64,000 nucleotides of DNA from a virus, in the IMG/VR virus record IMGVR_UViG_3300032322_002674, positions 45,458 to 109,457 of that record, one strand, 5' to 3'. Below, piece by piece: positions 16,616 through 64,000 of the stretch. The notes under the pieces are model-generated. The model was not told the origin of the DNA and did not search any database. It was given only the letters and a program-made list of their open reading frames with translations. Positions within the stretch are counted from its first letter, which is position 1. The number at the start of each line of letters is the position of its first letter. The position numbers and the translations under genes were made by a program.

Positions 16616-16652
16616 CAAAGTTACATATTTATTTATTAAAAACTAATGCAAA
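16616..16652 (-). promoter_or_regulatory. Bacteroidetes-like promoter box upstream of the GNAT genes
   Basis: On the minus strand TTTGCA (16647-16652), 23 bases, TAACTTTG (16616-16623), then TG. The same arrangement occurs at 11213, 35929 and 39105. It overlaps the start of the divergent gene at 16646. Confidence 0.4.
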
Positions 16653-18688
16653 ATTCTTGTGGAATCCTTTTTATTTCAAAACCAACAAAAAAAATTGGTT
16701 TGGGTTTACGTGCAGATGGTAATAGTCCTAATACTTGGTCAACCATTGGTGGTGGAATTGAAGAAGGTGAATCTTTTTTGGAATGTCTAACAAGGGAAAT
16801 TAAAGAAGAATTGGGAATTGATTTAAACCCAAAATTAATTCCAATTGATGATAATGAAAATTATAAAACATTTATTTCTTTTGTTGATTCAGAATTCACA
16901 CCCACTCTTAATAAAGAACATTCAGATTTTAAATGGTTTGATTATTCTGAATTACCCAAAAATATCCATCCAGGACTTAACAAAACATTAACAAAACCAT
17001 TTGTTCAAAAAGTTTTAAATAAACATTTAAATGAAACCACAACTGATGCAAGTGGTAGTTTTGTGGGTACTTTAAATTCACCAATACATAGGGGTAATAT
17101 TGGGGATTATATAAAAGAGGATTTGGAGTTAAAATCCAGAGCAAAAGACCAAGAAAAACAAAGGGAAGAATATATTAAAGATTTAATAAATAAAGTGACA
17201 AAACCCCCTATAAGGGAAGTTAAATTGGAAGATTTACAGAAATTAAAAGAATGGGATATACAAAATGATACAAAATATATAAATGAATTTAATAATAGAC
17301 TTTTTGAATATTATTATGAAATTGAAAGTTATTTTGATAAAGGTGTTTTTATTTTAAAAAATGGTGAAAAATTTCAATTACAATACATAACCAATCATTT
17401 TTCTTTGGTTACACCTAAATTAAGGGATTATATTAAAGGAAATAAATGGCATGATATAGTGTACTTCTCAAACACAAAAGAAATGTTTGAAATATTGGAT
17501 AAAATAATGGAATCAGTAAATATGAAAGAAAACATAAGTATTAAAGAAAACATAAAAAATGATGGAAAAAATTATGATGTTATTCATGAAGATGATGATT
17601 TATTGGTTATAAATGTTAGAGATGCAAAAACTGCAAAATGTTTTAGTCAAAATACACAATGGTGTTCACAAAGTAATCCAGGTTTTAGAAATCATTATTT
17701 ATCAGAAGAGTTACAAAAAGAATATTTTAAAAATAAAGGTTTATTAAATGAAACAATTGTAAAAAATAATAATGAATATTGTTTAAAATCCAAAAAAGGA
17801 AAAAATTTGGGTTGTTACCCAACAAAATCTGGCGCAGAAAAAAGGGAAAGACAAGTACAATATTTTAAACACTTAAATGAATATCAGGTTTCACCTGGGG
17901 AAACAGTAGAATGGGATTTGGAAAATAATACCACCAAAATTAATCGTTTAGATGGTTCTATTGAATGGATTTTACAAAATGAACACCAAACCCTACCTTA
18001 CTTAGAAAAGTTGTTTAAAACATTAAATAAACAACAAATTATCGAATTCTCAAAAAGATTATATAATAAATTATCATCTGGTGGAAATAAAAGAAAAATC
18101 ATAATGATTGGTTTGGTTACTGCAATGATAAATTATGGTATATCAAAAGATGATATTCTTCATGAATTTAATAGTTCAGATATTGAACAACTTATTCAAA
18201 AAGATATTAAACCTAAAATAGAAAAACAATATAGGGGTGATATTAATGATTTTTTAAATCTTCTTGCATTTAAAGAAAGTTCTGGTAATTGGAAAAAAAT
18301 CAGATATTCTAAAAAAACTGGTAATCCTGTATATATTGGAAAATATCAATTTGGTAAAATTGCACTTGAAGATTTGGGTGTTAATCCTGATATTATTTTA
18401 CAATTTAAAGATAATCCTAATGTATTCCCACCAAAAATGCAAGATAATTTAGTTAAAAAATTATTAAATAAAAATAGAAAATACTTGGGTGATAATTATC
18501 TTTCTTATGATGGTAAAACTGTTGGTGGTATAAATGTTACTGAATCAGGTTTACTTGCAGCATCACATTTAAGGGGTGCTCTTGCAGTTAAGAAATTTAT
18601 TGATTCAAATGGTAAGATTGATTTATCTGATGCAAACGGAACAAAGGTTTCTGATTATATGAAATATTTTGGTGGATTTAATATTTAA
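16646..18688 (+). CDS. Nudix hydrolase / lytic transglycosylase multidomain protein
   Basis: The 680-residue product starts with a Nudix domain (about 1-125) holding the Nudix box GGGIEEGE then REIKEELGI. A cleavage-like LNE precedes TTTDASGSFVG. At about residue 160 comes LELKSRAKDQEKQREEYI, a segment repeated elsewhere in the window. About residue 328 is CFSQNTQWCSQ, like the T-x-W-C motif of a common phage domain, and then a Cys-containing KSKKGKNLGCYPTK part. The last 145 residues have LLAFKESSGNWKK, IGKYQFGKIAL, GLLAASHLRGALA and VSDYMKYFGGF, the pattern of a phage transglycosylase (Glu of KES catalytic). It may be a head-packaged polyprotein (inference). Confidence 0.75.
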   Translation: MQNSCGILFISKPTKKIGLGLRADGNSPNTWSTIGGGIEEGESFLECLTREIKEELGIDLNPKLIPIDDNENYKTFISFVDSEFTPTLNKEHSDFKWFDYSELPKNIHPGLNKTLTKPFVQKVLNKHLNETTTDASGSFVGTLNSPIHRGNIGDYIKEDLELKSRAKDQEKQREEYIKDLINKVTKPPIREVKLEDLQKLKEWDIQNDTKYINEFNNRLFEYYYEIESYFDKGVFILKNGEKFQLQYITNHFSLVTPKLRDYIKGNKWHDIVYFSNTKEMFEILDKIMESVNMKENISIKENIKNDGKNYDVIHEDDDLLVINVRDAKTAKCFSQNTQWCSQSNPGFRNHYLSEELQKEYFKNKGLLNETIVKNNNEYCLKSKKGKNLGCYPTKSGAEKRERQVQYFKHLNEYQVSPGETVEWDLENNTTKINRLDGSIEWILQNEHQTLPYLEKLFKTLNKQQIIEFSKRLYNKLSSGGNKRKIIMIGLVTAMINYGISKDDILHEFNSSDIEQLIQKDIKPKIEKQYRGDINDFLNLLAFKESSGNWKKIRYSKKTGNPVYIGKYQFGKIALEDLGVNPDIILQFKDNPNVFPPKMQDNLVKKLLNKNRKYLGDNYLSYDGKTVGGINVTESGLLAASHLRGALAVKKFIDSNGKIDLSDANGTKVSDYMKYFGGFNI

Positions 18689-19380: not shown

Positions 19381-20067
19381 TTAAAGAAAATGTATTTTAT
19401 AATATATTCTTTTTATTTTATTTCTTTTATAATCATTTTTAACAATACCTTTCATTTTTCCCTCCATTAATCTTTTTTCTGGATTTGTCCAATATTCATG
19501 TGCATCTTCTAAAGTCATATCACCATTTATGTGTAATTTTTTGATTGAACTACCATAACGATTAGAAATATCTTTACGAATAAAAATATATGATTTAGGA
19601 TTTTCTACATTAAACATATCATATTTATCACTAAAAATTGTTTTAATTATTTCAGAAAATCTTTCATTACTATAAATTTTATCATTTCCATCAGTTTGAT
19701 GTGAGTATTTTAACATTGTTGGGTTATTTGTTTTAATAAAATCATTAATTATTTTTGGTGCAGTTGCAGTTACTTTTAACCAAGATTTAGATGTTTTTAA
19801 ATCATTATTCATATCTTTTAACCAACCCCAATGTATGTCAAAATAAAAATCAGGTATTTTACCTTCTAAGAAATAATTAAAATAAAAATGAATGTCATTT
19901 TCTCTACGAAAATAAAATTTAACTTTTATCCCATCTTCATTAATAATATATTCTGTATCTGAAATTTTTTTAATATTATTCAAAGGTGAATCAAATAATT
20001 CTTCATTTAAAACATTATATCTTTTAAATTCTTTTAATAATTGATTATAAATTTTTTGTTCTTTCAT
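19381..20067 (-). CDS. Putative head-internal protein of a recurrent phage module family
   Basis: The 228-residue product begins with a helical leader (MKEQKIYNQLLKEF...) ending in VLNE, then ELFDSPLNNIKKISDTEYII and KVTATAPKIINDFI, HQTDGNDKIYSN. The same layout is in the protein at 24316-24978 and, more diverged, in two modules of the 1200-residue protein at 39629 and in 61849-62388. L-N-E at the end of the leader suits prohead-protease cleavage, so the leader may be a capsid-targeting sequence (inference). Function is unknown. The start overlaps the upstream gene by 23 bases. Confidence 0.55.
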   Translation of the reverse strand: MKEQKIYNQLLKEFKRYNVLNEELFDSPLNNIKKISDTEYIINEDGIKVKFYFRRENDIHFYFNYFLEGKIPDFYFDIHWGWLKDMNNDLKTSKSWLKVTATAPKIINDFIKTNNPTMLKYSHQTDGNDKIYSNERFSEIIKTIFSDKYDMFNVENPKSYIFIRKDISNRYGSSIKKLHINGDMTLEDAHEYWTNPEKRLMEGKMKGIVKNDYKRNKIKRIYYKIHFL

Positions 20068-20989
20068 TATTTATAAATATTTCATATTCATCTATTGGTT
20101 TACCTATTTTAGATACAATAAAAACTTCTGTATATTCATTTGTTTTTTCATAAATTTCTTTTGCCTTTTCAAATGCAAGTTTTTGATATAACTTACCAAC
20201 ATGATTTCTATTATTCTTACCATGAAATGCTTCAATAGTCATAGGTCTATTTGGTGTTATTAAACCATTATATCTATTTCCTCTACCAACTTGTCCATCA
20301 TCACCGTTTTCGATTGATGACCCACAAAGAGTTAAAAAAGGAATATCTGACGTATTAAATAAGACATTTCCAATATTTAATTTATTAATAAAATCTTTTT
20401 TTATTAAATCATATTCATTTTTATTTTTACAAAATTTTGAATATATTGGTGAACATATTGTAATTGAGTTTGGTGTTAGCATTATTTTATATAATTCACC
20501 AATTGGTAATACCTTTATTAAATCTTTAATTTTTTCTGAAATTTCAAAAACAAAATTTTCATTCTTAGAATAAGGATAATAACCAACACCAAAACTTGTA
20601 TCATTCGCTAAAATTATTTCATTTTCAGAAATTTTATTTAATGAATAAGACACATTATTTGATTTTATCAAAATATTAATATTAGGTAAATTTGGTACAA
20701 GTTCTTTTATTTTTTTATTTATTCTTTCATTTAATATGTTTTTTAATTCATCATCTAAAAAAGATATTTGCCCACCTAAAATAAATTCAGGTTCTTTAAT
20801 TATTTCACCACCACCAAAATAAATATTTATATCACCAGCACAAAGTAAAGATTTATCAATATTATAGTGTTTTATATGACCATATTTAGTTTTATAATAA
20901 TAATCTAAGGTATTTGTTAAATCATCACAAACTATATCACATATAGTGTCTGGATGTGCGTTGCTTTTATACTCAATTATTTCAAACAT
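20045..20989 (-). CDS. mat: S-adenosylmethionine synthetase, archaeal type
   Basis: The 314-residue product has the hallmarks of archaeal-type MAT: SNAHPDTICDIVCDDL near the start, HYNIDKSLLCAGD, IYFGGGEIIKEP, NDTSFGVGYYPYSKNE, then GSSIENGDDGQVGRGNRYNG, LITPNRPMTIEAFHGKN, HVGKLYQKLAF and SKIGKPIDE. The enzyme joins ATP and methionine to give AdoMet, with release of phosphate and diphosphate. It is shorter than archaeal enzymes (about 400 residues), so some loops are reduced, but the nucleotide and phosphate motifs are intact. AdoMet could feed methyltransferases such as the one at 63392. This type is not the usual bacterial MetK. Confidence 0.85.
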   Translation of the reverse strand: MFEIIEYKSNAHPDTICDIVCDDLTNTLDYYYKTKYGHIKHYNIDKSLLCAGDINIYFGGGEIIKEPEFILGGQISFLDDELKNILNERINKKIKELVPNLPNINILIKSNNVSYSLNKISENEIILANDTSFGVGYYPYSKNENFVFEISEKIKDLIKVLPIGELYKIMLTPNSITICSPIYSKFCKNKNEYDLIKKDFINKLNIGNVLFNTSDIPFLTLCGSSIENGDDGQVGRGNRYNGLITPNRPMTIEAFHGKNNRNHVGKLYQKLAFEKAKEIYEKTNEYTEVFIVSKIGKPIDEYEIFINNERTKNL

Positions 20990-21012: not shown

Positions 21013-21516
21013 TTAAATTTTAAAATCTTTATGAAAATCTTTTAAAATTAATTTTTGTGGCATTATAAATTCCCCATTATGTAATGATGAATAACATGAT
21101 TGATAAAGTATTTCAGAACGTAAAACTTTATGTATTAATTGATTATTCGTTAAATTGCAAGTAAACTTATATACTTTTAATTCCCCATCAAAAGAAAATG
21201 GTTCATTTAATAATAAATGAAAATAATCATGAGATGCTCTAAATAAAAGATTATAAACATCACCAAGTACAGGTGAAAAGTTATATTTTGTTGATATTTT
21301 CAATATACCATTATTGAAATCGTTTTTCATATCTTCAAAACTTTCATAAGTAAAATTATTATGAAAATCTATAAATACAAAATTACTTATCATTGAATAA
21401 GTATTACCTATGAATTTTCTTATATTATTTAAGTCATTTTTTTGTAAACTACTTAATTCACATTCAGAAAATTCATAGGTATCAGACATTAATTTAATTA
21501 AATCATTATTTGACAT
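21013..21516 (-). CDS. Conserved phage protein with FR-x-x-HDYFH motif
   Basis: The 167-residue product contains LLFRASHDYFHLLL then FSFDGELKVYKFTCNL, which resembles FRTVHDYFHDIG and FNLRGEYKVYNRQ in the protein at 59632-60294, so the two are paralogues. The pattern F-R-x-x-H-D-x-F-x-H/G occurs in phage proteins of unknown role. The conserved His and Asp suggest a metal or catalytic site. It overlaps the start of the following large protein gene by 11 bases. Confidence 0.5.
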   Translation of the reverse strand: MSNNDLIKLMSDTYEFSECELSSLQKNDLNNIRKFIGNTYSMISNFVFIDFHNNFTYESFEDMKNDFNNGILKISTKYNFSPVLGDVYNLLFRASHDYFHLLLNEPFSFDGELKVYKFTCNLTNNQLIHKVLRSEILYQSCYSSLHNGEFIMPQKLILKDFHKDFKI

Positions 21517-24315: not shown

Positions 24316-24978
24316 TTATTTGTTTTTATAATAAATATATGTTAATTTATATTGTTTTCTTTTTTCTTCTTCTTTTATGAAATCGTTTTTAACAATTCCT
24401 TTTAGGTCATTGATATTTGGATGTAGAACTCTTTGTTTTGCAACATCAAAAGATTCATTTAAAAATTGTATTCTTTTTTTGATTGCAGTTTCATAAATTG
24501 TTGATAGTTCTTTTTGAACTAAGAAAAAATTTTCTTTTTCATCATCGGATATGAAAATATATTTATCACCAAAAATCGTTCTTACTTTATCAATAAAATT
24601 TGGATTTGAATAAATTTTTTTATTTCCATCAGTTTGCCTACCAAAATGAATTACTTTTGGTTGATAATCTTCAATAAATTCGTTTATTATTTTATAAGAT
24701 GTTGCAATTACTCTACCCCAATTTTTAGGAGTTTTTAATTCTTCTTTCATTTCTTTATTCCACAACCAATAAACTTCCCAAAAAATATCTATTTCTTCTT
24801 TTTTAACTTTAATTAAATTTTCTACATCAAATCTGATTTTGAAACGAAAATCAACAATAACACCTTCTTCATTTATTTGATAGAATTGGTCATCAATTTT
24901 TTTAACATTTGTAAATGGGGTGTCAAAAATTTCTTCGTTTAAAATTTCTCTAACCAATTTAATAATTTCGTTTTTCAT
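24316..24978 (-). CDS. Putative head-internal protein, paralogue of 19381-20067
   Basis: The 220-residue product has leader MKNEIIKLVREILNE, then EIFDTPFTNVKKIDDQFYQI, VIATSYKIINEFIEDY and GRQTDGNKKIYSNPNF. All of these match the protein at 19381 in order and spacing. The L-N-E at the end of the leader again gives a possible prohead-protease site. The function of the family is unknown. Its start overlaps the stop of the upstream HExxH gene by 4 bases. Confidence 0.55.
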   Translation of the reverse strand: MKNEIIKLVREILNEEIFDTPFTNVKKIDDQFYQINEEGVIVDFRFKIRFDVENLIKVKKEEIDIFWEVYWLWNKEMKEELKTPKNWGRVIATSYKIINEFIEDYQPKVIHFGRQTDGNKKIYSNPNFIDKVRTIFGDKYIFISDDEKENFFLVQKELSTIYETAIKKRIQFLNESFDVAKQRVLHPNINDLKGIVKNDFIKEEEKRKQYKLTYIYYKNK

Positions 24979-25883
24979 AATGTATTAAAATAAATATATG
25001 GTGATTCATTCATCACTATTCTTTCATCCAAAAATTCATCAACATAAAAAATTAAATCACCTTCCTTTAAACCAACAGAATAACCTGCAACTTTAAGAAT
25101 TTTTTTATGTAATTTTTCTCCTTTTTCCTTAAATTTTTTATCAATATATTTTTTTAATTCATTAAAATCTTTAAAATTAAAATTCATTTTAGTTATTTTA
25201 AAACCACTATTAAAGGAAATTAAAAATTTTTCCTTTTCTTCATCACTTAATTCATCCAATTGATTTATGTTATAATTCATTAAATAAAATGAATCTTCAT
25301 AAATCTGTGATTGTTTTGTAAATTCTATAACTTCTTCTTTAGTTTTATTTTTTAATTGATAATGAAATTCTTGTACCCTTGCATTTATTTCTTCATCGAG
25401 TGATAAATAAAATAATCTTAAAAAATTTTTTATAATAGGATTTTCAATAAATCTATATTCAAAATTTAAAAGATTTTTTACTTTAACTAAATTTTTAGTT
25501 TTGGTTTCCTTATTAAATCTAATATAATCATCCCAGAAATGATGTAATTCATGTGAAAATATAAATCTAATTGTTTCTTTATCAGGATTATTATGATTAA
25601 ACCAAAGTTCAATATTTAAATTGTATTTAACATCACCAATATCATCAATAAAAGGATTTAAATTAATTCTTGCAGTTGTTTTATTTAAATCATTATTTGT
25701 TTTTATAACAATACTATTAATTGGTAAATCTTTAAAGTCATAGTTACCTTTATGAAGAATAAAACCAAATTTATTATTAATTGTTAATTCTGTTAATTGA
25801 TTAGTAAATTCATCTAATTTATTAACTTTACCGATTGATTCAAAAATATTATAAATTTCTTTTAATATTTCTTTAGTTTCCAT
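24975..25883 (-). CDS. Putative HExxH zinc metalloprotease-like protein, paralogue of 1474-2328
   Basis: A 302-residue protein with IRFIFSHELHHFWDDYIRF (HELHH) at about residues 105-123 and LRLFYLSLDEEINARVQEF about 40 residues on. Both blocks match the protein at 1474-2328, as does INQLDELSDEEKEKFL later. The conservation of the HExxH motif and the downstream acidic block between diverged copies suggests a functional metal site. It ends in VMNESPYIYF, another M/L-x-E followed by Ser. Overlaps both neighbours, so it is part of a tightly packed unit. Confidence 0.55.
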   Translation of the reverse strand: METKEILKEIYNIFESIGKVNKLDEFTNQLTELTINNKFGFILHKGNYDFKDLPINSIVIKTNNDLNKTTARINLNPFIDDIGDVKYNLNIELWFNHNNPDKETIRFIFSHELHHFWDDYIRFNKETKTKNLVKVKNLLNFEYRFIENPIIKNFLRLFYLSLDEEINARVQEFHYQLKNKTKEEVIEFTKQSQIYEDSFYLMNYNINQLDELSDEEKEKFLISFNSGFKITKMNFNFKDFNELKKYIDKKFKEKGEKLHKKILKVAGYSVGLKEGDLIFYVDEFLDERIVMNESPYIYFNTL

Positions 25884-26554: not shown

Positions 26555-27472
26555 TTAATAATTCAAATTCATCCCTAAGTAAAGTTGTTTTATTTTAATC
26601 ACTTTTCTATGTTCTATATATTTTTTTATTTGCTCATCAGTTAAATTTTTAAATTCAAGTAAGGTAAACCAATCATCTCTTTCTAATTTTCCATTAATAT
26701 AAATTTGTTTAATATTATTTGGTAATAAATCAAAAATAATATCAATAGGATTTGTATAATCACCTTGAATTTCATGTTCATTTTCAATTTCCAAAAAACC
26801 ATTAACATCCCTTTTAATTAATTCTGAATAATAATTTACATATTTTGATAAAACTTCATTTGGTAATTTTCTTATAATATTTTCTGGAATATCTTCATAT
26901 TCACCATTCATTATTTTTTTTGAATAATATTCTATTGCCTGTTTTTCTTGGTCATTTGCACGAGATTTAAGGTTTAAATTTTCTTTCACATTTTCTTTCT
27001 TTTCCAATTTTTCAATCTGTAATTTTATTAATTGTTCAATCGTTTTAAATGGATATTTGGAAAATTGAATCTCTGAACTAAAATCAATATGATTATGATT
27101 ATCAACATCAATCCTAAATAACCAAAAATCTGAACCACTTAAATTATGAAAATAAAAATGAACTTCATGTTTACCAATGTTTTTTTCAAAGAAGATTCTA
27201 AAATCAATAACATTTGGTTCATCAGTAAAAATTATTACTTTTTTTGTTAGTTCTAATTTATATTTTTCTTTTAAATAATCAGTAAATTTATTTAATATAT
27301 CTTTTTTTTGTACACCTAAAATATTATAATCTTGGTAATTAATATCAGTAATTTCTTTTTTTAAAATCTGATTTATATATTCTTCCCTTTGTTTTTCTTG
27401 GTCTTTTGCACGACTTTTTAACTCCAAATCTTCGATTAGTTTTAATTGTTTTTCGGTAAGAATATATTTCAT
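26555..27472 (-). CDS. Modular protein with two LKSRA segments, last repeat lost by frameshift
   Basis: I place the start at 27472 (MKYILTEKQLKLIEDL), since the upstream part of the open frame is out of character and crosses the divergent gene. LELKSRAKDQEKQREEYI follows at about residue 16 and NLKSRANDQEKQAIEYY at about residue 165, each just after L-x-E or V-x-E. The C-terminal part has helical repeats of the type found at 49577 and 51872. The frame closes at 26555, but another frame continues directly as KTTLLRDEFELLSEEMKNWY to a stop at 26493, completing one more repeat. So a frameshift in the A-rich stretch near 26595 is likely. Confidence 0.55.
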   Translation of the reverse strand: MKYILTEKQLKLIEDLELKSRAKDQEKQREEYINQILKKEITDINYQDYNILGVQKKDILNKFTDYLKEKYKLELTKKVIIFTDEPNVIDFRIFFEKNIGKHEVHFYFHNLSGSDFWLFRIDVDNHNHIDFSSEIQFSKYPFKTIEQLIKLQIEKLEKKENVKENLNLKSRANDQEKQAIEYYSKKIMNGEYEDIPENIIRKLPNEVLSKYVNYYSELIKRDVNGFLEIENEHEIQGDYTNPIDIIFDLLPNNIKQIYINGKLERDDWFTLLEFKNLTDEQIKKYIEHRKVIKIKQLYLGMNLNY

Positions 27473-27521
27473 ATAGAATAAATATTTTAATTTTTGGAAT
27501 AATTTATTATATTTATGCATT

Positions 27522-28256
27522 ATGAACGCAATTAAATTAAAATCAAAAAGAAATAATTCAGAATTAATAATGGAAAATGAGGTAATTAATACCTCACAAA
27601 CCAATTTCCCTAAGAATGTAATGGTCTTTAAATTAAAGAATGAAAGAAAAAATTTAAAAGACAGAATTAAATCTGCATATAATATAATCCTGAATGGTGA
27701 ATTATATGACGAATTTACTTTTGAAGAAAATGAAATGAATTATCTAACAAATGTTTTAAAAAAACAAGAAAAGGATAAAGAAAATTTGATTAAACAATAT
27801 AACAAAAAAGATAAATATATCCAAGATATGCTTAATTTTGACATTAAATCTTTTTTGACAAAATGGTTTGGTGAAAGAAAAATTAAAACTATTTCATCAG
27901 AAGTTAGATTTAATACAATTGAAGAAGAAAAAGAAAGATATATAAAATTAGGGGTTAATCCTGATAAAATTTTAGTTACAGATTTACCAGTGTTTACTTA
28001 TTCTTTAACAAAAAATAAAATTGTTAATTATCATGATTCTTTTGATTTAATTAGTGATGGTAATGGTAGTTTTAAAATGACTAATGAAAATAATATAACA
28101 TTAGGTGTTGAAACCTATACAGAAGATTATGTTAAAGAAAATTTAGAAAAAATAAATTCTTTAGGTATAGTAATTTACCCAACATTGAAAATTTATGATA
28201 ATGAAGAAAATAATAAATTTTACCGTTTTACATTCATTCCTGAAAAAACAAATTAA
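27522..28256 (+). CDS. Hypothetical protein with coiled-coil-like centre
   Basis: A 244-residue protein not assigned to any family. Residues 35-105 are strongly charged and helical (NVLKKQEKDKENLIKQYNKK), probably coiled coil; the second half is beta-rich (ILVTDLPVFTYSLTKNKIVN). It is first in a plus-strand run of five genes with small gaps or overlaps, divergent from the modular gene starting at 27472. Confidence 0.55.
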   Translation: MNAIKLKSKRNNSELIMENEVINTSQTNFPKNVMVFKLKNERKNLKDRIKSAYNIILNGELYDEFTFEENEMNYLTNVLKKQEKDKENLIKQYNKKDKYIQDMLNFDIKSFLTKWFGERKIKTISSEVRFNTIEEEKERYIKLGVNPDKILVTDLPVFTYSLTKNKIVNYHDSFDLISDGNGSFKMTNENNITLGVETYTEDYVKENLEKINSLGIVIYPTLKIYDNEENNKFYRFTFIPEKTN

Positions 28257-32395: not shown

Positions 32396-32719
32396 TTATT
32401 TTTGTTTATTTATTTTTTTTAAATATAAAAGTTCTTCTTTATATTTTTTTAATGAAGGAAATGAATTAATTTCAAGACAATAATCAACTAACCCTAAAAT
32501 ATATTGACAACGTTCATCAAAGTTTTTATTATCTAAAAATAATAATAATTCATTATCATTAAGTTTTTCTATTTCATTATACTTTTTTCTAAGTAATTGA
32601 ATATTTGTAAACCAATTAGGTAATGAATTATCAATCAATTGAGTGGTTGATTCTACAACTGAATTATTTTTCTTCCTTTTTATGGGTTTTATTTCATCTA
32701 CTTGAAAAAATGTTTTCAT
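32396..32719 (-). CDS. Small protein with N-terminal FFxVDEI motif
   Basis: The 107-residue protein begins MKTFFQVDEIKPIKRKK, which carries the motif shared by several proteins of the window, followed by a basic patch. The rest is helical (LNDNELLLFLDNKNFDERC) with no known domain. The ATG overlaps the stop of the ligase gene by one base. Confidence 0.55.
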   Translation of the reverse strand: MKTFFQVDEIKPIKRKKNNSVVESTTQLIDNSLPNWFTNIQLLRKKYNEIEKLNDNELLLFLDNKNFDERCQYILGLVDYCLEINSFPSLKKYKEELLYLKKINKQK

Positions 32720-33428: not shown

Positions 33429-33740
33429 TTAACAATCTTCTTCTTCACCAGATTCATCTTCTTCATTATAATGGGTCTTATTTGTAGTACAATAAGTAAA
33501 TGCTCTTTTATTAGTAAAAAACAAAAAACTTCTTTCTTTTATTATTTCATATTTTAAAGGATTACCGCAAACAGGACAAATCTGTAAATCATAAACACAT
33601 TTGTGTATTAAATTTTCCTTTTCTTTAATTTCCTCGTTTTCTTTTTCTTTTAAAAGAATAATTTTTCTTAATTTTTCTGTATTAATCATAATATTATTTT
33701 TTAATTGAATTTCTTCTACCGTAAAAAATGTATTTTTCAT
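33429..33740 (-). CDS. Zinc-ribbon protein with N-terminal FFxVEEI motif
   Basis: I place the start at 33740 (MKNTFFTVEEIQLKNN), which keeps the shared N-terminal motif at the very start; an upstream in-frame ATG at 33752 is possible. The middle is a charged helix. The C-terminal half has a C-x-x-C pair (ICPVCGNPLKYE) and later a YC plus acidic end, suggesting a zinc ribbon. The gene lies between the ligase and Pnkp genes and overlaps the latter by 4 bases. It may bind RNA or a polymerase (inference). Confidence 0.55.
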   Translation of the reverse strand: MKNTFFTVEEIQLKNNIMINTEKLRKIILLKEKENEEIKEKENLIHKCVYDLQICPVCGNPLKYEIIKERSFLFFTNKRAFTYCTTNKTHYNEEDESGEEEDC

Positions 33741-35914
33741 CTTTTTAACCATTGATTTCTTAATGCAATAATTGACACTTCTTTTAAATAATCCTTATCA
33801 AGTTGTTTTAACCAACCATAAAATTCAACATCTTCTTTAGATTTTAATTTACCGTGATTAAATGGTTTATTATCATCTTTTTGTCTTGCAACTGCATCTT
33901 TAATTCCTCTTCTATACTTCCACTTATTATAAAAATAAGTTTTGTATTTAAACATAAATTTATTCATATCCTCAAATACAAATCCCTCAATCCATTCACC
34001 ATTTAAATTATAATCATGATGAAGAATTTTTTTATAGAATTCATAAAATTCTTCCCAATGATTAAAAACTGCAACTTTTTCTTTAACATCCAATCCCAAT
34101 TCCTTACCAATTTTTAATAATTCTTCATAAGAATCAGTTTTAAATTCAATATCTCTTTTTACAGATTCAATAAGAACGATATTTGGTTTGGGATATTCAA
34201 TAATATGTGGGTCTAAATTCGGTTCAATTACCTCAAAAATAAGTGAACAATTATTATTTTTTACATAATCTTTTAGTAAGTCAAAGTTAGTGATTTTTTC
34301 TTTTAATATTTTGGCAAACATTTGGGAAAATTCTCCATCAGAAGTTGATTTTGATGATATAAAAACTTCATCTTTAATGGAATCATAACCTACCAATCCC
34401 AAAAAACCATTATATTTATGCCAACAAGTAAGTGGAAATTTTATTTTTGTAGGTAATATATCCAATGATGTTTCTTTTTGTTCTCCAATATTAAAAAATT
34501 TATCATAAGAACGAGTTATAATTTCACCATTAATTGTATTAAGAAATAATCCCCTTGCCTTAATGTTTAATTGATTCCATTTTGAATTGAAAAATGCATC
34601 ACGAGTAAAATTAAAAGAAGATATATAATTGGTTAACTTATTTTCACGAACTAATCTGGATTTTCTTAATTCATTAACCAAATTAAGTCCTTCAAGATTT
34701 ACCACTTCGGTATCAAGTTCTTCTTTTATTTTAAATAAATTATTTTTAATTTCAATACCTTTAATTTCATTACCAGATAAATGCAAAATTCTTAAATGAC
34801 CACCAAATTCAATTTTACCCTCCAAGTTAAATGATTTTTCTGATGCAAATATTGATGAGTTTTTTGAATTTCTATGACCATGAATTTGATAAATTTCCTT
34901 ATTACAGTTTTGTGAAAAAACTTCATCAATATCCAAATTATGTCTGCCAACACCTTTAATCATTTCTTGCGTTGCAATATAAATTAAATTTCTTTTTGGG
35001 AACGTAGATAAACCACCATGAGTTACAAGATATTCTTTTCCATTATATGTAAACCATGACATTTGACCTAATTTTCGATATAATTCCCTTGCATCAGATT
35101 TGGTGAAATCAGATTCTTCTAATTGGGGTTTTGTTTCAACTTCAAATACTTTAGATTTTGATATTTCATTATTACCCCATTTCCAAAGATGTATTTCATG
35201 ATTACCTTCAATAAGATAAACATTGGGTTGTTTTGATAATTCCAACATATATTTTAATACATCAGAATTATTTATACCCCTATCAATAAAGTCACCAACA
35301 AAAATATATTGATTTTCTAAAGAAAAAGGATTATCTTGAAAAAATTGAATTAAAGGTTCAACACAACCATGAATATCACCGAATATATAAACATTTTTAT
35401 AATTGGATAAATCAATTGGTTTTGCATGAATATTTTCAAATAAATTATCAGGTTTTGTTATAATAAACCTACCTTGAGGTTTTTCCAAATCATATCTTGC
35501 AAATGCACGGTGAATAACTTCTTCTGGAACAAATTTATATTCATCACGCATTTTATTTTGTTTTAAAACCCTTTCTATTGGAACATCAGTAAAATCCAAT
35601 ACAAATGCACGATAACGATAATTTTCAATTAATTTTTTATAACGTTGAAAATTTGTTCTACCTTGATGTGTTGCATCTATTACCGTTAATTCACCCCTTT
35701 CCATTCGTTTTTCAAGAAGTTCAAAAAGTAATGACCAAACTTTGTTATCATTATTCATTGAAATATTTAAACCACCCAATTCATTAAGAGATGGTGATTG
35801 AAATAATAAACGAATTTGGTCTGGGGAAAGTGTATATTCCTCCAGACCATTATTTTTAATAAAAGTTGATTTTCCTGAACCAGGACAACCCCTTGTTAGA
35901 ATTAAAGTTCTCAT
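33737..35914 (-). CDS. pnkp: Three-domain polynucleotide kinase-phosphatase-ligase (Pnkp-like)
   Basis: The 725-residue protein has a P-loop kinase domain (LTRGCPGSGKSTF at residues 6-18), then a calcineurin-type phosphatase with FGDIHGC, VGDFIDRG, EGNHE, THGG and HGH (about residues 175-360), then a ligase-type nucleotidyltransferase with KARGLFL, SYDKFFNIGE, CWHKYNGFLG (nucleophile Lys near 496), IFEVIE, IEGFVFED and FKYK. This order, kinase-phosphatase-ligase, is that of bacterial Pnkp, which heals and seals broken RNA. A Bacteroidetes-type promoter lies directly upstream. In phage it probably restores tRNAs cut by host anticodon nucleases (inference from T4 Pnk/Rnl1). Confidence 0.9.
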   Translation of the reverse strand: MRTLILTRGCPGSGKSTFIKNNGLEEYTLSPDQIRLLFQSPSLNELGGLNISMNNDNKVWSLLFELLEKRMERGELTVIDATHQGRTNFQRYKKLIENYRYRAFVLDFTDVPIERVLKQNKMRDEYKFVPEEVIHRAFARYDLEKPQGRFIITKPDNLFENIHAKPIDLSNYKNVYIFGDIHGCVEPLIQFFQDNPFSLENQYIFVGDFIDRGINNSDVLKYMLELSKQPNVYLIEGNHEIHLWKWGNNEISKSKVFEVETKPQLEESDFTKSDARELYRKLGQMSWFTYNGKEYLVTHGGLSTFPKRNLIYIATQEMIKGVGRHNLDIDEVFSQNCNKEIYQIHGHRNSKNSSIFASEKSFNLEGKIEFGGHLRILHLSGNEIKGIEIKNNLFKIKEELDTEVVNLEGLNLVNELRKSRLVRENKLTNYISSFNFTRDAFFNSKWNQLNIKARGLFLNTINGEIITRSYDKFFNIGEQKETSLDILPTKIKFPLTCWHKYNGFLGLVGYDSIKDEVFISSKSTSDGEFSQMFAKILKEKITNFDLLKDYVKNNNCSLIFEVIEPNLDPHIIEYPKPNIVLIESVKRDIEFKTDSYEELLKIGKELGLDVKEKVAVFNHWEEFYEFYKKILHHDYNLNGEWIEGFVFEDMNKFMFKYKTYFYNKWKYRRGIKDAVARQKDDNKPFNHGKLKSKEDVEFYGWLKQLDKDYLKEVSIIALRNQWLKR

Positions 35915-36112: not shown

Positions 36113-36280
36113 TTATTGTTTTTTTAATTTTTGTTCATCAATTTCTTTCGCAGTAAAAGGAATTCTATCCATGACCATACCATAACCTTTATCAATCCAT
36201 CTTTTATAGATTAAAGTTTTTAAACCCCTTTCCCAGAACCAAACATAAAGTTCATTACCTTTTTTTTCTTTACTAATCAT
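36113..36280 (-). CDS. Small hypothetical protein (55 residues)
   Basis: The ATG at 36278-36280 overlaps the gltX stop as ATGA, so it is translationally coupled. The product is MISKEKKGNELYVWFWERG with a basic middle and the end PFTAKEIDEQKLKKQ, which resembles the FxxEEI motif seen at the N-terminus of other proteins here. No family is recognised. Confidence 0.55.
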   Translation of the reverse strand: MISKEKKGNELYVWFWERGLKTLIYKRWIDKGYGMVMDRIPFTAKEIDEQKLKKQ

Positions 36281-37839
36281 TTGACTAAGGTTTTTTGAAC
36301 AAATTCATAATAAGATTCCAATCTTGAAATTGTTTCTTTATAACCCCACAGAACCATTAAATCAAACAAACCAGGTGAAGGTTCACCCCCAGTCAAAGAT
36401 TGTCTTAAATACATCATTATGTCCTTTTGTTGACATTCTAATTGTGTTATTAATTCCAATCCTTTTAATTGAAATCCATCCAAATCTGTTGGTTTTGTTT
36501 CTTTTAAATAATTAATATATTCGGAAAACCATTTTTCTTGTGTTTCACCCCAATTTTTAAATGATTCAGGGTTTAAATTATTTAAGTCAAACGAATTCCA
36601 AAACCATTTTGTTAGGGAATAAAAATTTGGATAGAATTTTTCTTTTTCACCTTTTTCAGTCATTTCTTTTAAGGTAATATCTTTAAAAGACATAACCTTA
36701 TCTTTGGTTAAATCCCACATTTTTTCAACCAATTCTTTTCCATACAATTCATAAAGTTTTTCACCTTTATCATTAACCAATTGTTCAAGTGCAAGATTAT
36801 TATCCATTACTTTGATATATTGATTATTATACCACAATGCCTTTTTGAAATTGTATCTTGCTCCAGATTTGGAAACTCTTTCGATTGAAAAAGATTGAAT
36901 TAATTCATCAATGGTATATAATTCTTTATTACCACCAGGATTCCAACCCAAAAATGCAAGGAAATTATTTACTGCTTCAGGTAAAAATCCCATTTCTTTA
37001 AATTGAAGTGGATAAACAGGAATACCAAATGCATCACCATCACGTTTACTTAATTTACCATTTCCTTCAGGTCTAAGAATTAAAGGTAGGTGTGCAAATG
37101 TTGGATGTTCCCAACCAAATGATTCATATAACATTATATGTGTAGGTACAGATGATAACCATTCTTCACCACGAATAACATGTGTGGTTTGCATTAAATG
37201 GTCATCTACCACATTTGCAAGATGGTAAGTTGGAAGATTATCTTTAGATTTCCAAATAACTTTATCATCACATTCTGATGTATTAAATTTAACTTTACCA
37301 CGAATCATATCTGTGAAAATAATATCACGATTTTTTGGCATTAATAATCTAACACAATAAGGGTGATTTTCTTCTAAAAGTTTTTTTGTTTCTGATTCAG
37401 GAAGAACTAAAGAGTTCTTCATATATTGACGAGTAACTGAATCATATTTTGCAGAACGAGATTTACCACCGAAATCTTCTCTCATTTTTTCAAGTTCATC
37501 AGGGGTATCGAATGCATAATATGCATAACCTTTATTTAAAAGAATTTGAACATGTTCTTTATAGATTTCAGTTCTTTGGGATTGAGTGTAAGGACCGAAT
37601 TGTCCACCGTGTTTTGGGGATTCATCAGGCATAATACCTAACCACTCTAAAGAATCATAGATATATTTTTCTGCAGTTGGAACGAAACGTTCCCTATCTG
37701 TATCCTCGATTCGGATATAGAAATCACCACCGAGTTTCTTTGCTAATAGATAATTGAATAGTGCTGTACGCACACCACCGATGTGTAGAGTGCCGCTGGG
37801 AGAAGGTGAGAACCTTAATCTAATCTTTTTTTCTGACAT
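36277..37839 (-). CDS. gltX: Glutamyl-tRNA synthetase
   Basis: The 520-residue protein is a complete class I GluRS. RFSPSPSGTLHIGGVRTAL contains the HIGH-type motif at about residue 19; YIRIEDTDRERF, HVIRGEEWLSSVPTH, FAHLPLILRPEGNGKLSKRD (KMSKS-type motif KLSKR) and VNNFLAFLGWNPG follow in the expected order; the C-terminal 180 residues form the anticodon-binding part. Length matches bacterial GluRS (about 470-510). It would charge tRNA-Glu with glutamate. The gene is close to bacterial enzymes, so it was probably taken from a host, and it sits next to RNA-repair genes. No sign of decay. Confidence 0.95.
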   Translation of the reverse strand: MSEKKIRLRFSPSPSGTLHIGGVRTALFNYLLAKKLGGDFYIRIEDTDRERFVPTAEKYIYDSLEWLGIMPDESPKHGGQFGPYTQSQRTEIYKEHVQILLNKGYAYYAFDTPDELEKMREDFGGKSRSAKYDSVTRQYMKNSLVLPESETKKLLEENHPYCVRLLMPKNRDIIFTDMIRGKVKFNTSECDDKVIWKSKDNLPTYHLANVVDDHLMQTTHVIRGEEWLSSVPTHIMLYESFGWEHPTFAHLPLILRPEGNGKLSKRDGDAFGIPVYPLQFKEMGFLPEAVNNFLAFLGWNPGGNKELYTIDELIQSFSIERVSKSGARYNFKKALWYNNQYIKVMDNNLALEQLVNDKGEKLYELYGKELVEKMWDLTKDKVMSFKDITLKEMTEKGEKEKFYPNFYSLTKWFWNSFDLNNLNPESFKNWGETQEKWFSEYINYLKETKPTDLDGFQLKGLELITQLECQQKDIMMYLRQSLTGGEPSPGLFDLMVLWGYKETISRLESYYEFVQKTLVK

Positions 37840-39189: not shown

Positions 39190-39654
39190 ATGAACTTAAA
39201 AAGTGCATCAGGAAACTACAACTTTAAAAAAGATTTAAAGATTGGTAAAAAGGGTGAGGATTATATAATTAATTTTCTTGAATCAAAAGGTTTTAAATTT
39301 ATTGATAGAAATAATGATAAAACATTTGATTTATTAATGGAATGGAGGGGAAAAAAGATTAAATATGAAATTAAAACAGATGTTTACCCAAAAGACACAG
39401 GAAATATGGTTATTGAATTTGAGAGTAGAGGAAAAGATTCTGGAATATCTGTAACCAAATCTCATTATTATATATATTATTATGCTCATTATGATGAAAT
39501 TTGGTTAATAAGAACCAAAGACCTTAAAAAACTTATTAAGGAAAATAATCTTAAATGGGTTAATGGTGGTGATTGGAGAAGTAACACAAAAATGTGGATT
39601 ATTCAAAAGGAAAAATTTAGAAATTGGTTTAAGGTATATAATTTTGCGAAATAA
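39190..39654 (+). CDS. PD-(D/E)XK-family nuclease-like protein
   Basis: The 154-residue protein has IGKKGEDYIINFLESKGFKF (Glu-bearing first helix), then KTFDLLMEWRGKKIKYEIKT (Asp, then E-x-K), the full catalytic set of the fold: E...D...ExK. A basic, aromatic C-terminal part follows. This arrangement resembles small phage endonucleases such as Holliday-junction-type or methylation-related nucleases. The target is unknown. Its last 26 bases overlap the convergent 1200-residue gene. Confidence 0.65.
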   Translation: MNLKSASGNYNFKKDLKIGKKGEDYIINFLESKGFKFIDRNNDKTFDLLMEWRGKKIKYEIKTDVYPKDTGNMVIEFESRGKDSGISVTKSHYYIYYYAHYDEIWLIRTKDLKKLIKENNLKWVNGGDWRSNTKMWIIQKEKFRNWFKVYNFAK

Positions 39655-42600
39655 TTTCCTCCAATCTCTTATATAATTCACCAACCGAATAAAATTTTTC
39701 ATCTAATAGTAGTCCTGTTGTACCAATTTTTTTATCATCAAAACATCTTAAAACAAAGTAATTTCTTGTTGATACAAAAATTGTAATGTGACTTGGTTTG
39801 TTGTCATAAGTAATATAAATAAAATTATCATCATGTTTTAAATTTGGGAATTTTTGTTTTATTCTATTAATTATAAATTTATCCATAAAATGTTCATCAA
39901 TTTTTTCAACTTCAACTACTTCTTTTGGTTTTAAATCCATAATTGATTTATCACCAATAATATTTTTTATATAATCATTTCTTTGTTTTTCTTGTTGATT
40001 TGCTCTAGAAGTTAGTTTTAAATTTTCTTTTATATTTTGTTTTTTATAATTTCTTACTAATTTTTTTAAATAATCTGGATATAAAAAATAAAAATCTTTA
40101 TCATAATTTTTGATTATTAAACCAATATACTTATTTAACAATTCATTTGAAGTATTTTTTACTTGTTCTTTAGAAAGTACTCTTGGTGTATTATTTGGAT
40201 TTAAAAATAAATAATTAATGTATTTTTCTTTTAAATCATCAGTCAAAAATTTATACTGAATATCTGATAAATTCCAATTAACGTGTTTTAAAATTTTATT
40301 TAAATAATATTGTTTTAAATCATCTGATAAAGATAAAAAATATTCATCACTCAAACCCCAACCAGAATCAATATATTCTTTTTTTAGTGGTTTACTTAAA
40401 TCTAAGAAATAATCATATTTAAGTAAATTTGGGTAGAAATTAATAATTTTAGATTTAACATCATCTGAAAGAAGTTTAAAAACCTCTTTAGGTATTTTTA
40501 AATTAAGTTTTTCACTATGAGTACCATTTAAAAATTTATCTGAATAGTATTTTACTGATTGAATTATTTGGTTATTTGCACGAGATTTTAAATTTAATCC
40601 TTCATTTAAGTTTTTTAATATAACAGAAAAAACCCAATAGTAACCAGAATTATTTCCTTTAGATAAAACTTTAAGTGTTGGATTTTTTTCTTTTATTGTT
40701 TGTAATCTTAAATTAAGATTATCAAAATTAGTATCAAAAATTAAAGACAAATTAGTAATTTTCGTATTACCTTTTTCGTAAGATATTTTATAGTTGTCAA
40801 TATCAATAACTAATGAATTTAAATTTATTGAATCATTTTTACTTATATTTAACAGTTTATTTCTTAAATCCTCTAAATTATTAGCACTAATATTAATTTG
40901 TTCATTTTTATTTTCTGAAACAACAAAAAAACTTTGTTTGTAATAAATTGTTTCACCACCTAACAAAAAATTAATTGTAACTGTTTTAATTTTTTTAGAA
41001 TTACCACCGTAATGATTTTTTAGTCTATCTTCTAATCCAGAAATTTGTTGGTTATGTCTTTGTTCAAAGTTATCACCAATACTACCTCTTGTAGTGAATA
41101 TAGTATAAGAATTACCATCTTTTGATTCAATAATATCACAAGAACTTTCTGTTATTATTTTATTATCTTTTACATAAGTTTTTATTTGTATGTTAGTTAC
41201 ATCTGTTTTAAAACCTTGATTATTTAATTTTTTTAGTTCATCAGAAACTCTTTGTTCAAAATCATCTGAAAGTCTTTTTGAACCCAGTATTCCATGCACT
41301 AAATCTAAGTCAGGGTTTGAAATTGATTGTACACCAACAGGTCCATTAACTTTAGATAAAATTTTTGTTTGTATTTGTTGTTGATTAATATTTTGAGATT
41401 TAACTTCTTGCGGATTTAAGGATGATAAACCTATCGCAGTACCAATTAACATATCTTTCCAACTTTCATTTAAATCTTTTCTTTTAATAAATGTAACATT
41501 TCCTTTGTATTCCAATTTATAATCTTGCGGTAGGTTTTTTGATAAAAATAATCTATTTATTTTTGCTCTTTTATTTGGTTCGTTGTCATCTTTTTTATTC
41601 CCACTTAAAATAGAATCAATTGAAAATCTTCCCATTGTTTCCTTTCTTGAATCAATATGTGAAATGGTTATTATTTCAGGTCTATAATCATTAATAAATT
41701 CATTTGTTATTTTTGTAACAGTACCAAGAACTCTTAAAGAATTTTCTTTATTTAATTCATTCATCCATTTTGATGTTGTGTAATATTCTCTTTCCCATTC
41801 TTCACCAAACTTTCCAATTGATAAAAGAAGAAATTTAACAAAGAATATTTCCTCACCATCTGAAAAACGATATTTTATTTTATCACCATCCACAATTTTT
41901 TCATAAGAATAAGTGTTGGTTAATTCTGCAATTTCATTAATTTGTTTTTTAGATTCTTTTAAATTTTTAAAATCAAGTAAATTACCATTAGAATCATAAG
42001 TTTTGGAAATTGAATAAAATAAAAATTCTAGAATTTCATTGATTGTATCAAACTCTATGTTTATATTCTTTAATGTTCTTTCTTGTGTTATTATATCTCT
42101 TGGACCTAAAATATGTAAGTTTATTTTATCTAAATGTTGAGTAATTGAAAACGAACCAATGATATTTTTAAAACGTATATTTTTAAAATCAACTTTATCA
42201 AAATTAAGATTATTTTCATAAAATTTATCAAAAGTATTAATAAAAGGATATTTTTCTTTAACTTTTTGTCTTATAATTAAACCCAATAAATTCAAAATAT
42301 TTTCAGGTAAATCTTTTACTGGTGAATTTAGAATTTTATCATCAATATTTTTAATGTATTCTTCCCTTTGTTTTTCCTGTTCTTTTGCACGAGATTTTAA
42401 ATTTAAATTTTCTTTTAAATTATAATTATCAGAAATAATTTCTTCCAATTTATTATATAATTCACCTACTGTATTAAATTCTTCTTCCATTATAATTTCA
42501 CCAAAACCATTATATGTTGTGATTGGTGTATAAAAATGTAAAAAAAATTTTTTCCCATTCGAGAAGAAAAGTAGTTTTTTATTTCTTATATCTATAAGAA

Positions 42601-43231
42601 ATAGATTATTATACTTTAATTTTGGGAATTTTTGTTTTAATTTATTAATTAATATTGGAAATATAAATTTAGACAAAAAAGTTGAATTTACTTCTTTTGG
42701 GGTTAATTCCATTATATCTTTATTTCCAATAATACTTTTTATATATTCTTCTCTTTGTTTCTCTTGTTCTCCAGCACGAGATTTTAAATTCAATTTATTT
42801 TCAACCAAATCAATTTCAGTATTATTACCAAAAGTTTTGATTTTATAGTTACTTGGTAATACTTTTTCCAAAAAATATTTGTTCACCCTTGTTCTTTTAT
42901 TTTCATCATAGGGGTTATTTGCAAATTCACTTTTACTTCTTACATGGTAAATTTTTATTTTCTTTGGGTTATATTTTTCAATAAAATCCAAAGTAATTTT
43001 TGTTATTGTATTTAATATTTTAAATCTTTCCTGACTATTAATATCATCAAATTGTTTCTCAAATGTTGAAAAATGTCTATTCCAAATATCATTACCATCT
43101 AATATAAAATCTACTGAAAAATTATAATCATCATCAGTCTTAAAATTATACGTAATAATATTTAGATTCCTATTTTTAGTTCTTTTTGTAATATAAACAT
43201 TAGATAAATCTACTATTTCGGTTAAAAACAT
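39629..43231 (-). CDS. 1200-residue modular protein with four LKSRA segments
   Basis: The protein begins MFLTEIVDLSNVYITKRT and a module with ITKITLDFIEKYNPKKIKIY; a second such module near residue 450-590 has VTKITNEFINDYRPEIITIS. LNLKSRA-type segments lie near residues 150, 275, 880 and 1070, each just after [L/I]-x-E (LVE, LKE, LNE, IKE). Three of them are followed by similar basic-helical blocks with a KFP segment and a short beta part, the fourth by helical repeats (LSDDLKQYYLNKIL). The middle (about 600-870) has no recognisable domain. I infer a packaged polyprotein cut into pieces by the prohead protease. No enzymatic motif is seen. Confidence 0.55.
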   Translation of the reverse strand: MFLTEIVDLSNVYITKRTKNRNLNIITYNFKTDDDYNFSVDFILDGNDIWNRHFSTFEKQFDDINSQERFKILNTITKITLDFIEKYNPKKIKIYHVRSKSEFANNPYDENKRTRVNKYFLEKVLPSNYKIKTFGNNTEIDLVENKLNLKSRAGEQEKQREEYIKSIIGNKDIMELTPKEVNSTFLSKFIFPILINKLKQKFPKLKYNNLFLIDIRNKKLLFFSNGKKFFLHFYTPITTYNGFGEIIMEEEFNTVGELYNKLEEIISDNYNLKENLNLKSRAKEQEKQREEYIKNIDDKILNSPVKDLPENILNLLGLIIRQKVKEKYPFINTFDKFYENNLNFDKVDFKNIRFKNIIGSFSITQHLDKINLHILGPRDIITQERTLKNINIEFDTINEILEFLFYSISKTYDSNGNLLDFKNLKESKKQINEIAELTNTYSYEKIVDGDKIKYRFSDGEEIFFVKFLLLSIGKFGEEWEREYYTTSKWMNELNKENSLRVLGTVTKITNEFINDYRPEIITISHIDSRKETMGRFSIDSILSGNKKDDNEPNKRAKINRLFLSKNLPQDYKLEYKGNVTFIKRKDLNESWKDMLIGTAIGLSSLNPQEVKSQNINQQQIQTKILSKVNGPVGVQSISNPDLDLVHGILGSKRLSDDFEQRVSDELKKLNNQGFKTDVTNIQIKTYVKDNKIITESSCDIIESKDGNSYTIFTTRGSIGDNFEQRHNQQISGLEDRLKNHYGGNSKKIKTVTINFLLGGETIYYKQSFFVVSENKNEQINISANNLEDLRNKLLNISKNDSINLNSLVIDIDNYKISYEKGNTKITNLSLIFDTNFDNLNLRLQTIKEKNPTLKVLSKGNNSGYYWVFSVILKNLNEGLNLKSRANNQIIQSVKYYSDKFLNGTHSEKLNLKIPKEVFKLLSDDVKSKIINFYPNLLKYDYFLDLSKPLKKEYIDSGWGLSDEYFLSLSDDLKQYYLNKILKHVNWNLSDIQYKFLTDDLKEKYINYLFLNPNNTPRVLSKEQVKNTSNELLNKYIGLIIKNYDKDFYFLYPDYLKKLVRNYKKQNIKENLKLTSRANQQEKQRNDYIKNIIGDKSIMDLKPKEVVEVEKIDEHFMDKFIINRIKQKFPNLKHDDNFIYITYDNKPSHITIFVSTRNYFVLRCFDDKKIGTTGLLLDEKFYSVGELYKRLEEIISQNYIP

Positions 43232-45174: not shown

Positions 45175-45617
45175 TCAGGTTTAGGTCTGTTATGAAATTT
45201 ATTAATTTTATCATTTACTTTATTAAGAAAATATTTAAATCCTATTTTGTCAATCGGATTTTTTGATAAATTATGTTGTTTAAAAACATTAAAATCAATA
45301 TCAACATTAAATAAAATGTTGTTTTGATAATAAGGAATTTCGTAATTAATAAATTCATCAATAATTTCATTATCAACACCATATATTACTATTGGTGTAA
45401 AAGTATTTATTACATATTCTATATCACTTATTCTTAATCTTTTATAATGAATTTCATTATTATTGTTTAAACCAAATCGTTTAAGAAGTAATGGTCTATC
45501 AAAATTTTTCATTACATCAGTACCATTCCAAGACCATCCCAAAGAAATAAGTTTTTCCTGAAATTTTTTATTTTCTTTGGAATTACTAAAAATAACATAT
45601 AACCATTGTTTATTCAT
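45156..45617 (-). CDS. Hypothetical protein
   Basis: The 153-residue product starts MNKQWLYVIFSNSKENKKFQ and has LGWSW after a helix, like a family of T4-like phage proteins of unknown role. The C-terminus ends in PKPDWIWYH. Overlaps both neighbours by 8-19 bases. No motif gives a function. Confidence 0.5.
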   Translation of the reverse strand: MNKQWLYVIFSNSKENKKFQEKLISLGWSWNGTDVMKNFDRPLLLKRFGLNNNNEIHYKRLRISDIEYVINTFTPIVIYGVDNEIIDEFINYEIPYYQNNILFNVDIDFNVFKQHNLSKNPIDKIGFKYFLNKVNDKINKFHNRPKPDWIWYH

Positions 45618-63255: not shown

Positions 63256-63399
63256 ATGTTAACTTCTTTATTAATAATTTTTCTTATTATCTTCATTATT
63301 TCCAAAACCGATTTTACAAAGTTTGGTTTAGGAAAAAAAGATAAAAAATGTTGTGGTAATTGTTCTTGTAATAATGAAAAACAACAATTAAATGGGTAA
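63256..63399 (+). CDS. Small membrane protein with cysteine-rich end (47 residues)
   Basis: An ATG at 63256 gives MLTSLLIIFLIIFIISKTDF, a single hydrophobic segment, then KKDKKCCGNCSCNN with four Cys. The stop overlaps the methyltransferase start by 8 bases. This could be a metal-binding anchor; no family recognised. Confidence 0.5.
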   Translation: MLTSLLIIFLIIFIISKTDFTKFGLGKKDKKCCGNCSCNNEKQQLNG

Positions 63400-64000
63400 T
63401 CAAAATACATTCTTTCAATTAGAAGAAATAGAAGAAAAAAAATTGTATAATAATGATACAGTTATTAAATCAATTTCTTTTGACCAAAATGAAATATTAA
63501 GGAATATAATTAAACTTTATATTGAGGAAGGTTTTTTTGAATGTGACCCAACTTATTCAAAAGGAAACTTTTATAAGAAAGGAATTAAAGAACCAATTCA
63601 TAAATTTGATTTATATCCTCAAACCAATGATACCATTGAGGCATCATCAGATGATTTACCACTTGATAATGAATCTGTAAATTCAATATTATTTGACCCA
63701 GTATTTACAGTTGGTATTCCAAATTCATCTAAAGGTAAATCAGGAAGTAATATAATTGCAAATAGATTTGGTTCATTTAAAACAATGAAAGATTTGTGGG
63801 ATTATTATTATAAAACCTTAAAAGAATGTCATAGAATACTCAAACCAAATAAATTTTTGGTTGTTAAATGTCAAGACACGGTTTCATCTTCAAAACAATA
63901 TTTATCTCATGTTGAATTGATTAATCAAGGAACTGAAATCGGGTTTTATTGTAAGGATATGTTTATTCTAAATGCAAAAAATAGAATATTATCTGGTAAA
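63392..64000 (+). CDS. DNA methyltransferase-like protein, C-terminus cut by window edge
   Basis: The open frame from ATG 63392 runs to the window edge (203 residues visible). It begins MGNQNTFFQLEEIEEKK, the recurrent N-terminal motif. Then come FECDPTYSKGNFYK, a D-P-x-Y variant of the DPPY catalytic motif (motif IV), SILFDPVF, GSNIIANRFGSFKTMKDLWD and ECHRILKPNKFLVVKCQDT, matching N6-adenine/N4-cytosine methyltransferases of the N6_N4_Mtase type. It would methylate DNA with AdoMet, which the window can supply through the synthetase at 20045. Whether a full enzyme follows is unseen. Confidence 0.7.
   Translation, partial: MGNQNTFFQLEEIEEKKLYNNDTVIKSISFDQNEILRNIIKLYIEEGFFECDPTYSKGNFYKKGIKEPIHKFDLYPQTNDTIEASSDDLPLDNESVNSILFDPVFTVGIPNSSKGKSGSNIIANRFGSFKTMKDLWDYYYKTLKECHRILKPNKFLVVKCQDTVSSSKQYLSHVELINQGTEIGFYCKDMFILNAKNRILSGK

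Follow-up and report, generated by a model that had tools for sequence, protein, structure and literature searches.

The window analyzed here, a stretch of 64,000 nucleotides, covers positions 45458-109457 of a virus record of 173,457 bp, the remainder of which was also scanned in stretches. It encodes a compact AdoMet synthetase (MAT) of the archaeal family. We favor, with a probability of about 60%, the reading that this enzyme makes AdoMet for phage methyltransferases, that it belongs to a phage-only clade associated with a methylation cassette, and that in the window phage it has been separated from that cassette and stands beside a bacterial-type MetK. The features concerned are listed in window coordinates, the residues being placed by alignment with the Thermococcus kodakarensis enzyme (TkMAT).

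20045..20989, minus strand: compact archaeal-family AdoMet synthetase (MAT, PF01941), P0001, 314 aa, assigned by PF01941, PDB matches and a structure model
20948..20956, minus strand: HPD motif (H12-P13-D14), the catalytic His corresponding to TkMAT His33
20582..20605, minus strand: NDTSFGVG motif, N129 corresponding to TkMAT Asn161 (methionine carboxylate)
20492..20494, minus strand: Leu166, at the site of TkMAT Asp201 and E. coli Asp163
20252..20305, minus strand: GDDGQVGRGNRYNGLITP motif, D230 corresponding to TkMAT Asp283
20192..20221, minus strand: GKNNRNHVGK motif, K258 corresponding to the conserved Lys311
19381..20067, minus strand: next gene in the MAT run, with a 23-nt overlap; not a methyltransferase
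21013..21516, minus strand: gene just upstream of MAT in the run, after a 23-nt gap; phrog_7806
63392..64000, plus strand: phage DNA methyltransferase (PF01555, N6_N4), 310 aa in all, running past the window end

The MAT gene is number six in a run of eight same-strand genes that extends from 26463 to 18879. Its direct neighbors in the window have no Pfam match, and the product of the gene at 19381..20067 is similar in sequence to that of the gene at 24316-24978. The stretch is not an assembly artefact, since the 20.9 kb compared were assembled with 100% identity in a separate viral contig. Elsewhere in the window, the genes at 1474-2328 and 24975-25883 encode two similar proteins that have in common a metalloprotease-like motif, SHELxHF, and the conserved stretch EEINARVQ; the product of the second gene is without a Pfam match.

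Family, fold and active site of the synthetase

A reading of the sequence alone had assigned the gene to the archaeal MAT family rather than to bacterial MetK, and profile and structure searches agree: P0001 matches PF01941 with 242.7 bits (E 8e-72, cut-off 27), and archaeal MATs are its only matches in the PDB (best E 2.7e-44). No PHROGs family matches the protein, and the NCBIfam MAT models all score below their own cut-offs, the best reaching 243 bits against a required 435. A structure model built from 44 aligned sequences, which replaced an earlier one from 6 sequences that was weak at residues 212-261, has a pLDDT of 91.5 and a pTM of 0.89. It superimposes on the Methanocaldococcus jannaschii and Sulfolobus solfataricus enzymes with TM scores of 0.86-0.87 at 33-34% identity, and on archaeal MATs overall with TM scores of 0.80-0.87 (normalized to the query), while the identity in comparisons with MetK structures is 13-16%. 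Cellular MATs are among the sequences aligned for the model, so this fold match is supportive but not independent.

The roles of active-site residues were taken from TkMAT and transferred by alignment with 77 cellular proteins. In TkMAT, His33 is catalytic, His62, Asn64, and Asn161 bind methionine, with Asn161 at its carboxylate, Asp201 and Asp283 coordinate the ribose, with Asp201 at the ribose hydroxyls, Asp144 contacts the adenine amino group, and Tyr271 stacks on the adenine (PMC3853416). The phage enzymes keep His33, His62, Asn64, Leu145, Asn161, Lys203, Asp283, Arg289, and Lys311 (TkMAT numbering), and P0001 retains 63 of the 74 positions that are invariant (97% or more) in the 77 cellular MATs. 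Missing catalytic residues on alignment to archaeal structures had been named in advance as evidence against a working enzyme; the catalytic set is kept with the exception of the ribose-binding Asp201, which is replaced by Leu166 in P0001, while its partner Asp283 is kept. This site holds Asp in all 77 cellular proteins and Leu in five of the six phage MATs including P0001; the sixth, on contig L015, has Asp. The position of Asp144 is occupied by Asn in five phage MATs and by Ser in P0001, in a loop where the alignment is somewhat uncertain, and that of Tyr271 by Phe in P0001, as in E. coli. Since L015 is basal among the phage proteins, the exchange of Asp201 for Leu most likely arose within the phage clade, and its survival in genes that remain linked to methyltransferases points to a change that is tolerated or selected, not to decay. 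P0001 would probably still be catalytically active despite this exchange.

A phage-only clade and its methylation cassette

Homologs of P0001 were found in five more phage contigs in a scan of 2.9 million viral contigs; these proteins have 313-317 aa and share 52-59% identity with P0001. A scan of the same contigs for the DNA encoding NDTSFGVGY returned only the six contigs already found. An archaeal-family MAT had no match among 50,697 deposited phage records with three different queries, nor in an earlier scan of genome contigs with two phage MAT sequences as queries. Cellular relatives reach about 41% identity at most and are mostly 380-410 aa long, and the archaeal-family MATs found on plasmids are full-length cellular forms. 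The enzyme is indeed shorter than usual, as noted from the sequence alone, but this is not damage, because the five other contigs carry homologs of the same size that form one clade with it. A frameshift or truncation artefact is excluded by the shared end of the six phage homologs and by the identical second contig. None of the six has the N-terminal strand or the C-terminal tail. That strand joins the C-terminal domain in TkMAT and links both chain ends (PMC3853416), and for this reason the two losses look concerted.

A tree with archaeal and phage MATs, proposed earlier as a check, was built from 83 proteins (6 phage and 77 cellular). The phage proteins form a single clade with 100/100 support on a stem of 2.09; the position of its root among the cellular proteins carries a long-branch warning. 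L015 is basal in this clade and P0001 branches next, on the longest end branch of the phage MATs (0.73). Recent capture from a host or an archaeon is rejected on the basis of this supported clade, its long stem, and the GC content of the gene (22%, compared to 24% in the window). Differences among the phage homologs are most frequent at third codon positions, followed by first and then second positions, a pattern as under purifying selection.

A DNA methyltransferase gene directly adjoins MAT or overlaps it in each of the five relatives, mostly with overlaps of 1-14 nt. The methyltransferases differ in family between the contigs:

L003: N6_N4 beside MAT
L016: N6_N4 on both sides of MAT
L015: C5 beside MAT
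L012: N6-type adjacent to MAT, C5 one small gene further
L013: MT-A70 beside MAT

Remnants of N6_N4 genes also occur in L012 and L013, and a conserved, apparently two-helix membrane protein of 48 aa belongs to the cassette beside MAT in L003, L012, L013, L015, and L016. Every PF01555 or PF00145 match in the five contigs sits at the MAT locus, and PF02086 has no match there. If each contig carried one randomly placed methyltransferase gene, the probability of finding it within 1.5 kb of MAT in all five would be about 1e-6, a figure that is indicative only, as the contigs were treated as independent and it was computed after the pattern was seen. The contigs have few other genes in common; for example, L015 (G005) shares with the others only the cassette genes plus one weak match to G004. 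As so little is shared outside it, the cassette appears to move between otherwise different phages. MetK was not seen in the five relatives, whose records may be fragments.

A second synthetase and three methyltransferases in the record

The baseplate proteins of the record are T4-like and its terminase is closest to those of Flavobacterium, cyanobacterial, and other T4-like phages, which marks it as a tailed phage. An archaeal virus is unsupported in view of the same baseplate proteins, the phage-type terminase, and signal peptides that look Bacteroidota-like by eye. At record 146382-147608 it encodes a complete bacterial-type MetK (TIGR01034, 330.9 bits, cut-off 309.4), in which the Pfam N, M, and C domains are all present and the catalytic motifs are conserved in alignment with E. 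coli MetK; a single-sequence scan of viral contigs with this MetK gave no match. Two D12 methyltransferases are also encoded beyond the window. Like MetK, they lay outside the sequence seen by the sequence-only reading and are therefore absent from it. The DNA methyltransferase that it had placed at 63392 is confirmed by matches to PF01555 (30 bits) and to the DNA methyltransferase family phrog_24333 (E 1.4e-53), so that the record holds in total three DNA methyltransferases and two AdoMet synthetases, which belong to different families. The description of synthetase and methyltransferase as occurring together holds at the genome level only, because 42 kb separate the synthetase gene from the nearest methyltransferase gene, which is part of another gene block; none is adjacent to the MAT gene in the window, and the cassette is absent there. 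The further suggestion that host AdoMet is destroyed by another phage enzyme found no backing: with T3 gp0.3 (SAM lyase) as query, the best phmmer match in the record had an E of 0.27 over a 30-residue stretch, in a single-sequence search without a profile, which is a weak test.

The methyltransferase at 63392 begins with an FFQLEEI tag. The motif FFxVEEI (or FWQIEEI) starts six further, unrelated proteins, among them a Cas7-like protein (together with the methyltransferase: window 32396-32719, 33429-33752, 45610-45948, 45948-46634, and 63392-64000; L007:7126-8211; L008:1470-1832). It is absent from the interior of the record's proteins, in which 49,586 other residues were covered, and is possibly a targeting or virion-packaging tag. 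Another motif, LKSRAxxQEKQREEYI, is repeated internally in up to three copies each in seven large ORFs (window 16646-18688, 26555-27604, 39629-43231, and 49577-51106; L005:12551, L006:2458, and L007:14255) and is absent from the five contigs with the related cassette.

Some 4.4 kb past the end of the window, the record also contains a phage-encoded type I CRISPR-Cas locus (L007:4882-10390, record 113882-119390). Its genes encode Cas3 (HD and helicase), a Cas7fv-like protein, an unassigned protein in the Cas5 position, and Cas6; the array consists of 8-9 repeats, each of 36 nt, with a spacing of mostly 65-66 nt. Near this locus lies a protein fragment with a TnpB/Cas12f-like zinc-binding domain (PF07282), a match assigned by eye to the ORF at L007:12188-12589. 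Genes for a nicotinamide/nicotinate phosphoribosyltransferase and a ribose-phosphate diphosphokinase are found side by side at L010:2153-4676 (record 169653-172176), a pair that probably serves NAD+ salvage by the phage. The phage further has a glutamyl-tRNA synthetase gene at window 36277-37839, and at L004:12649-13875 a gene whose product resembles leucyl-tRNA synthetase but is shortened to 408 aa, the profile having 843.

Function, alternative readings and known systems

Because its gene adjoins DNA methyltransferase genes in five other viruses, the compact MAT probably supplies the methyl donor for viral DNA. During infection it would convert methionine and ATP into AdoMet and feed this to phage-encoded DNA methyltransferases. 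Its clade would usually travel as a cassette in which the MAT is accompanied by the 48-aa membrane protein and by one or two DNA methyltransferases whose family can be exchanged. In the window phage the gene, now separated from its methyltransferase and presumably read within another gene run, would work alongside MetK to serve three phage methyltransferases. Of the earlier proposal that the phage could raise AdoMet for its own methylation, the link to DNA methylation is supported, directly in the five relatives but only indirectly in the window. Possible reasons to keep this enzyme beside MetK include a higher flux, expression at another stage, resistance to MetK inhibitors, and a changed substrate. 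Against the reading as a whole stand the Leu at the Asp201 site in P0001 and four relatives, the lack of an adjacent methyltransferase gene in the window, the complete MetK already present in the record, and the scores below cut-off with all NCBIfam MAT models.

The same observations can be read differently. The loss of Asp201 in five and of Asp144 in all six phage MATs, with the methionine-binding residues kept, may have changed the nucleotide used, or the product (an AdoMet variant made, for instance, from dATP or a different NTP), or may have strongly altered the kinetics, and with an ordinary MetK in the same genome a plain duplicate would be needless; this is unlikely, as the basal L015 retains Asp201 in the same cassette context and the partner genes are ordinary methyltransferases. 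We consider it quite improbable that the enzyme is a bypass that keeps AdoMet flowing when the MetK of host or phage is blocked, for example by a T3-type SAM lyase of a competing phage or by a host defense. The T3 SAM lyase inhibits MetK by binding to it (PMC11580459; PDB 8bb1), the compact MAT would escape such an inhibitor given its sequence identity of only about 15% to bacterial MetK structures, and the window phage has both kinds of synthetase, but a SAM lyase was not found in these records by single-sequence search, nor is the bypass favored by relatives in which no MetK was seen, though their records may be fragments. A speculative combination of both, in which a compact, phage-only lineage with a rewritten nucleotide site, mobile with its cassette among unrelated phages, provides a supply of AdoMet or a variant that is immune to MetK-directed inhibitors and is for this reason carried on top of MetK, is likewise unlikely.

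The unlinked position of the gene, its long end branch, and the missing aspartate could also mean that in the window phage the gene has lost its cassette and, with its task taken over by MetK, is now neutral or in decay. Such a relic is improbable: the frame is intact, an identical copy exists in the second contig, as many conserved positions are kept as in the cassette-linked relatives (62-65), and the differences between codon positions indicate constraint. The supply of AdoMet to phage methyltransferases therefore remains the reading that we prefer.

AdoMet supply for methylation by a phage is a known kind of system, but within the literature and databases searched the enzyme family and its compact form appear to be new, as do the cassette and the presence of MetK in the same phage. 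While bacterial MetK in phages is known, the archaeal-family MAT represents a second phage route through a different protein family, with an enzyme that is about one quarter shorter than usual and is tied to DNA methylation in several phages. This makes it possible to test AdoMet supply as a battleground between phages and the dispensability of Asp201 in the MAT fold, and the compact enzyme might serve for making AdoMet analogues.

In comparison with archaeal MATs (M. jannaschii 7p8m, T. kodakarensis 4l4q, Pyrococcus furiosus 6s81, S. solfataricus 4k0b), P0001 has a similar fold (TM 0.84-0.87) and shares the HPD, HYN, NDTSFGVG, GDDG..GRGNR, and GKN motifs as well as the methionine-contacting residues. 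The archaeal enzymes, however, have about 400 aa, whereas P0001 lacks the N-terminal strand and C-terminal tail and has a shortened flexible loop; they carry Asp201 and Asp144 where P0001 has Leu and Ser, and with 34-41% identity to the phage proteins they fall outside the separate phage clade. PF01941 is also found in bacterial and plasmid-borne MATs (Aquificota, Cupriavidus, Bradyrhizobium, Algoriphagus, and others), a family thus known to have been transferred between domains, but these proteins are full-length, carry Asp201, and lie outside the phage clade in the tree. Phage-encoded bacterial MetK, with homologs in 134 INPHARED records, sometimes occurs near DNA methyltransferases, for example in streptococcal prophages. 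Such phages bring their own AdoMet synthetase, as here, with a proximity to methyltransferases as in the five MAT relatives, but their enzyme belongs to a different protein family from the archaeal-family MAT, and the window phage has both.
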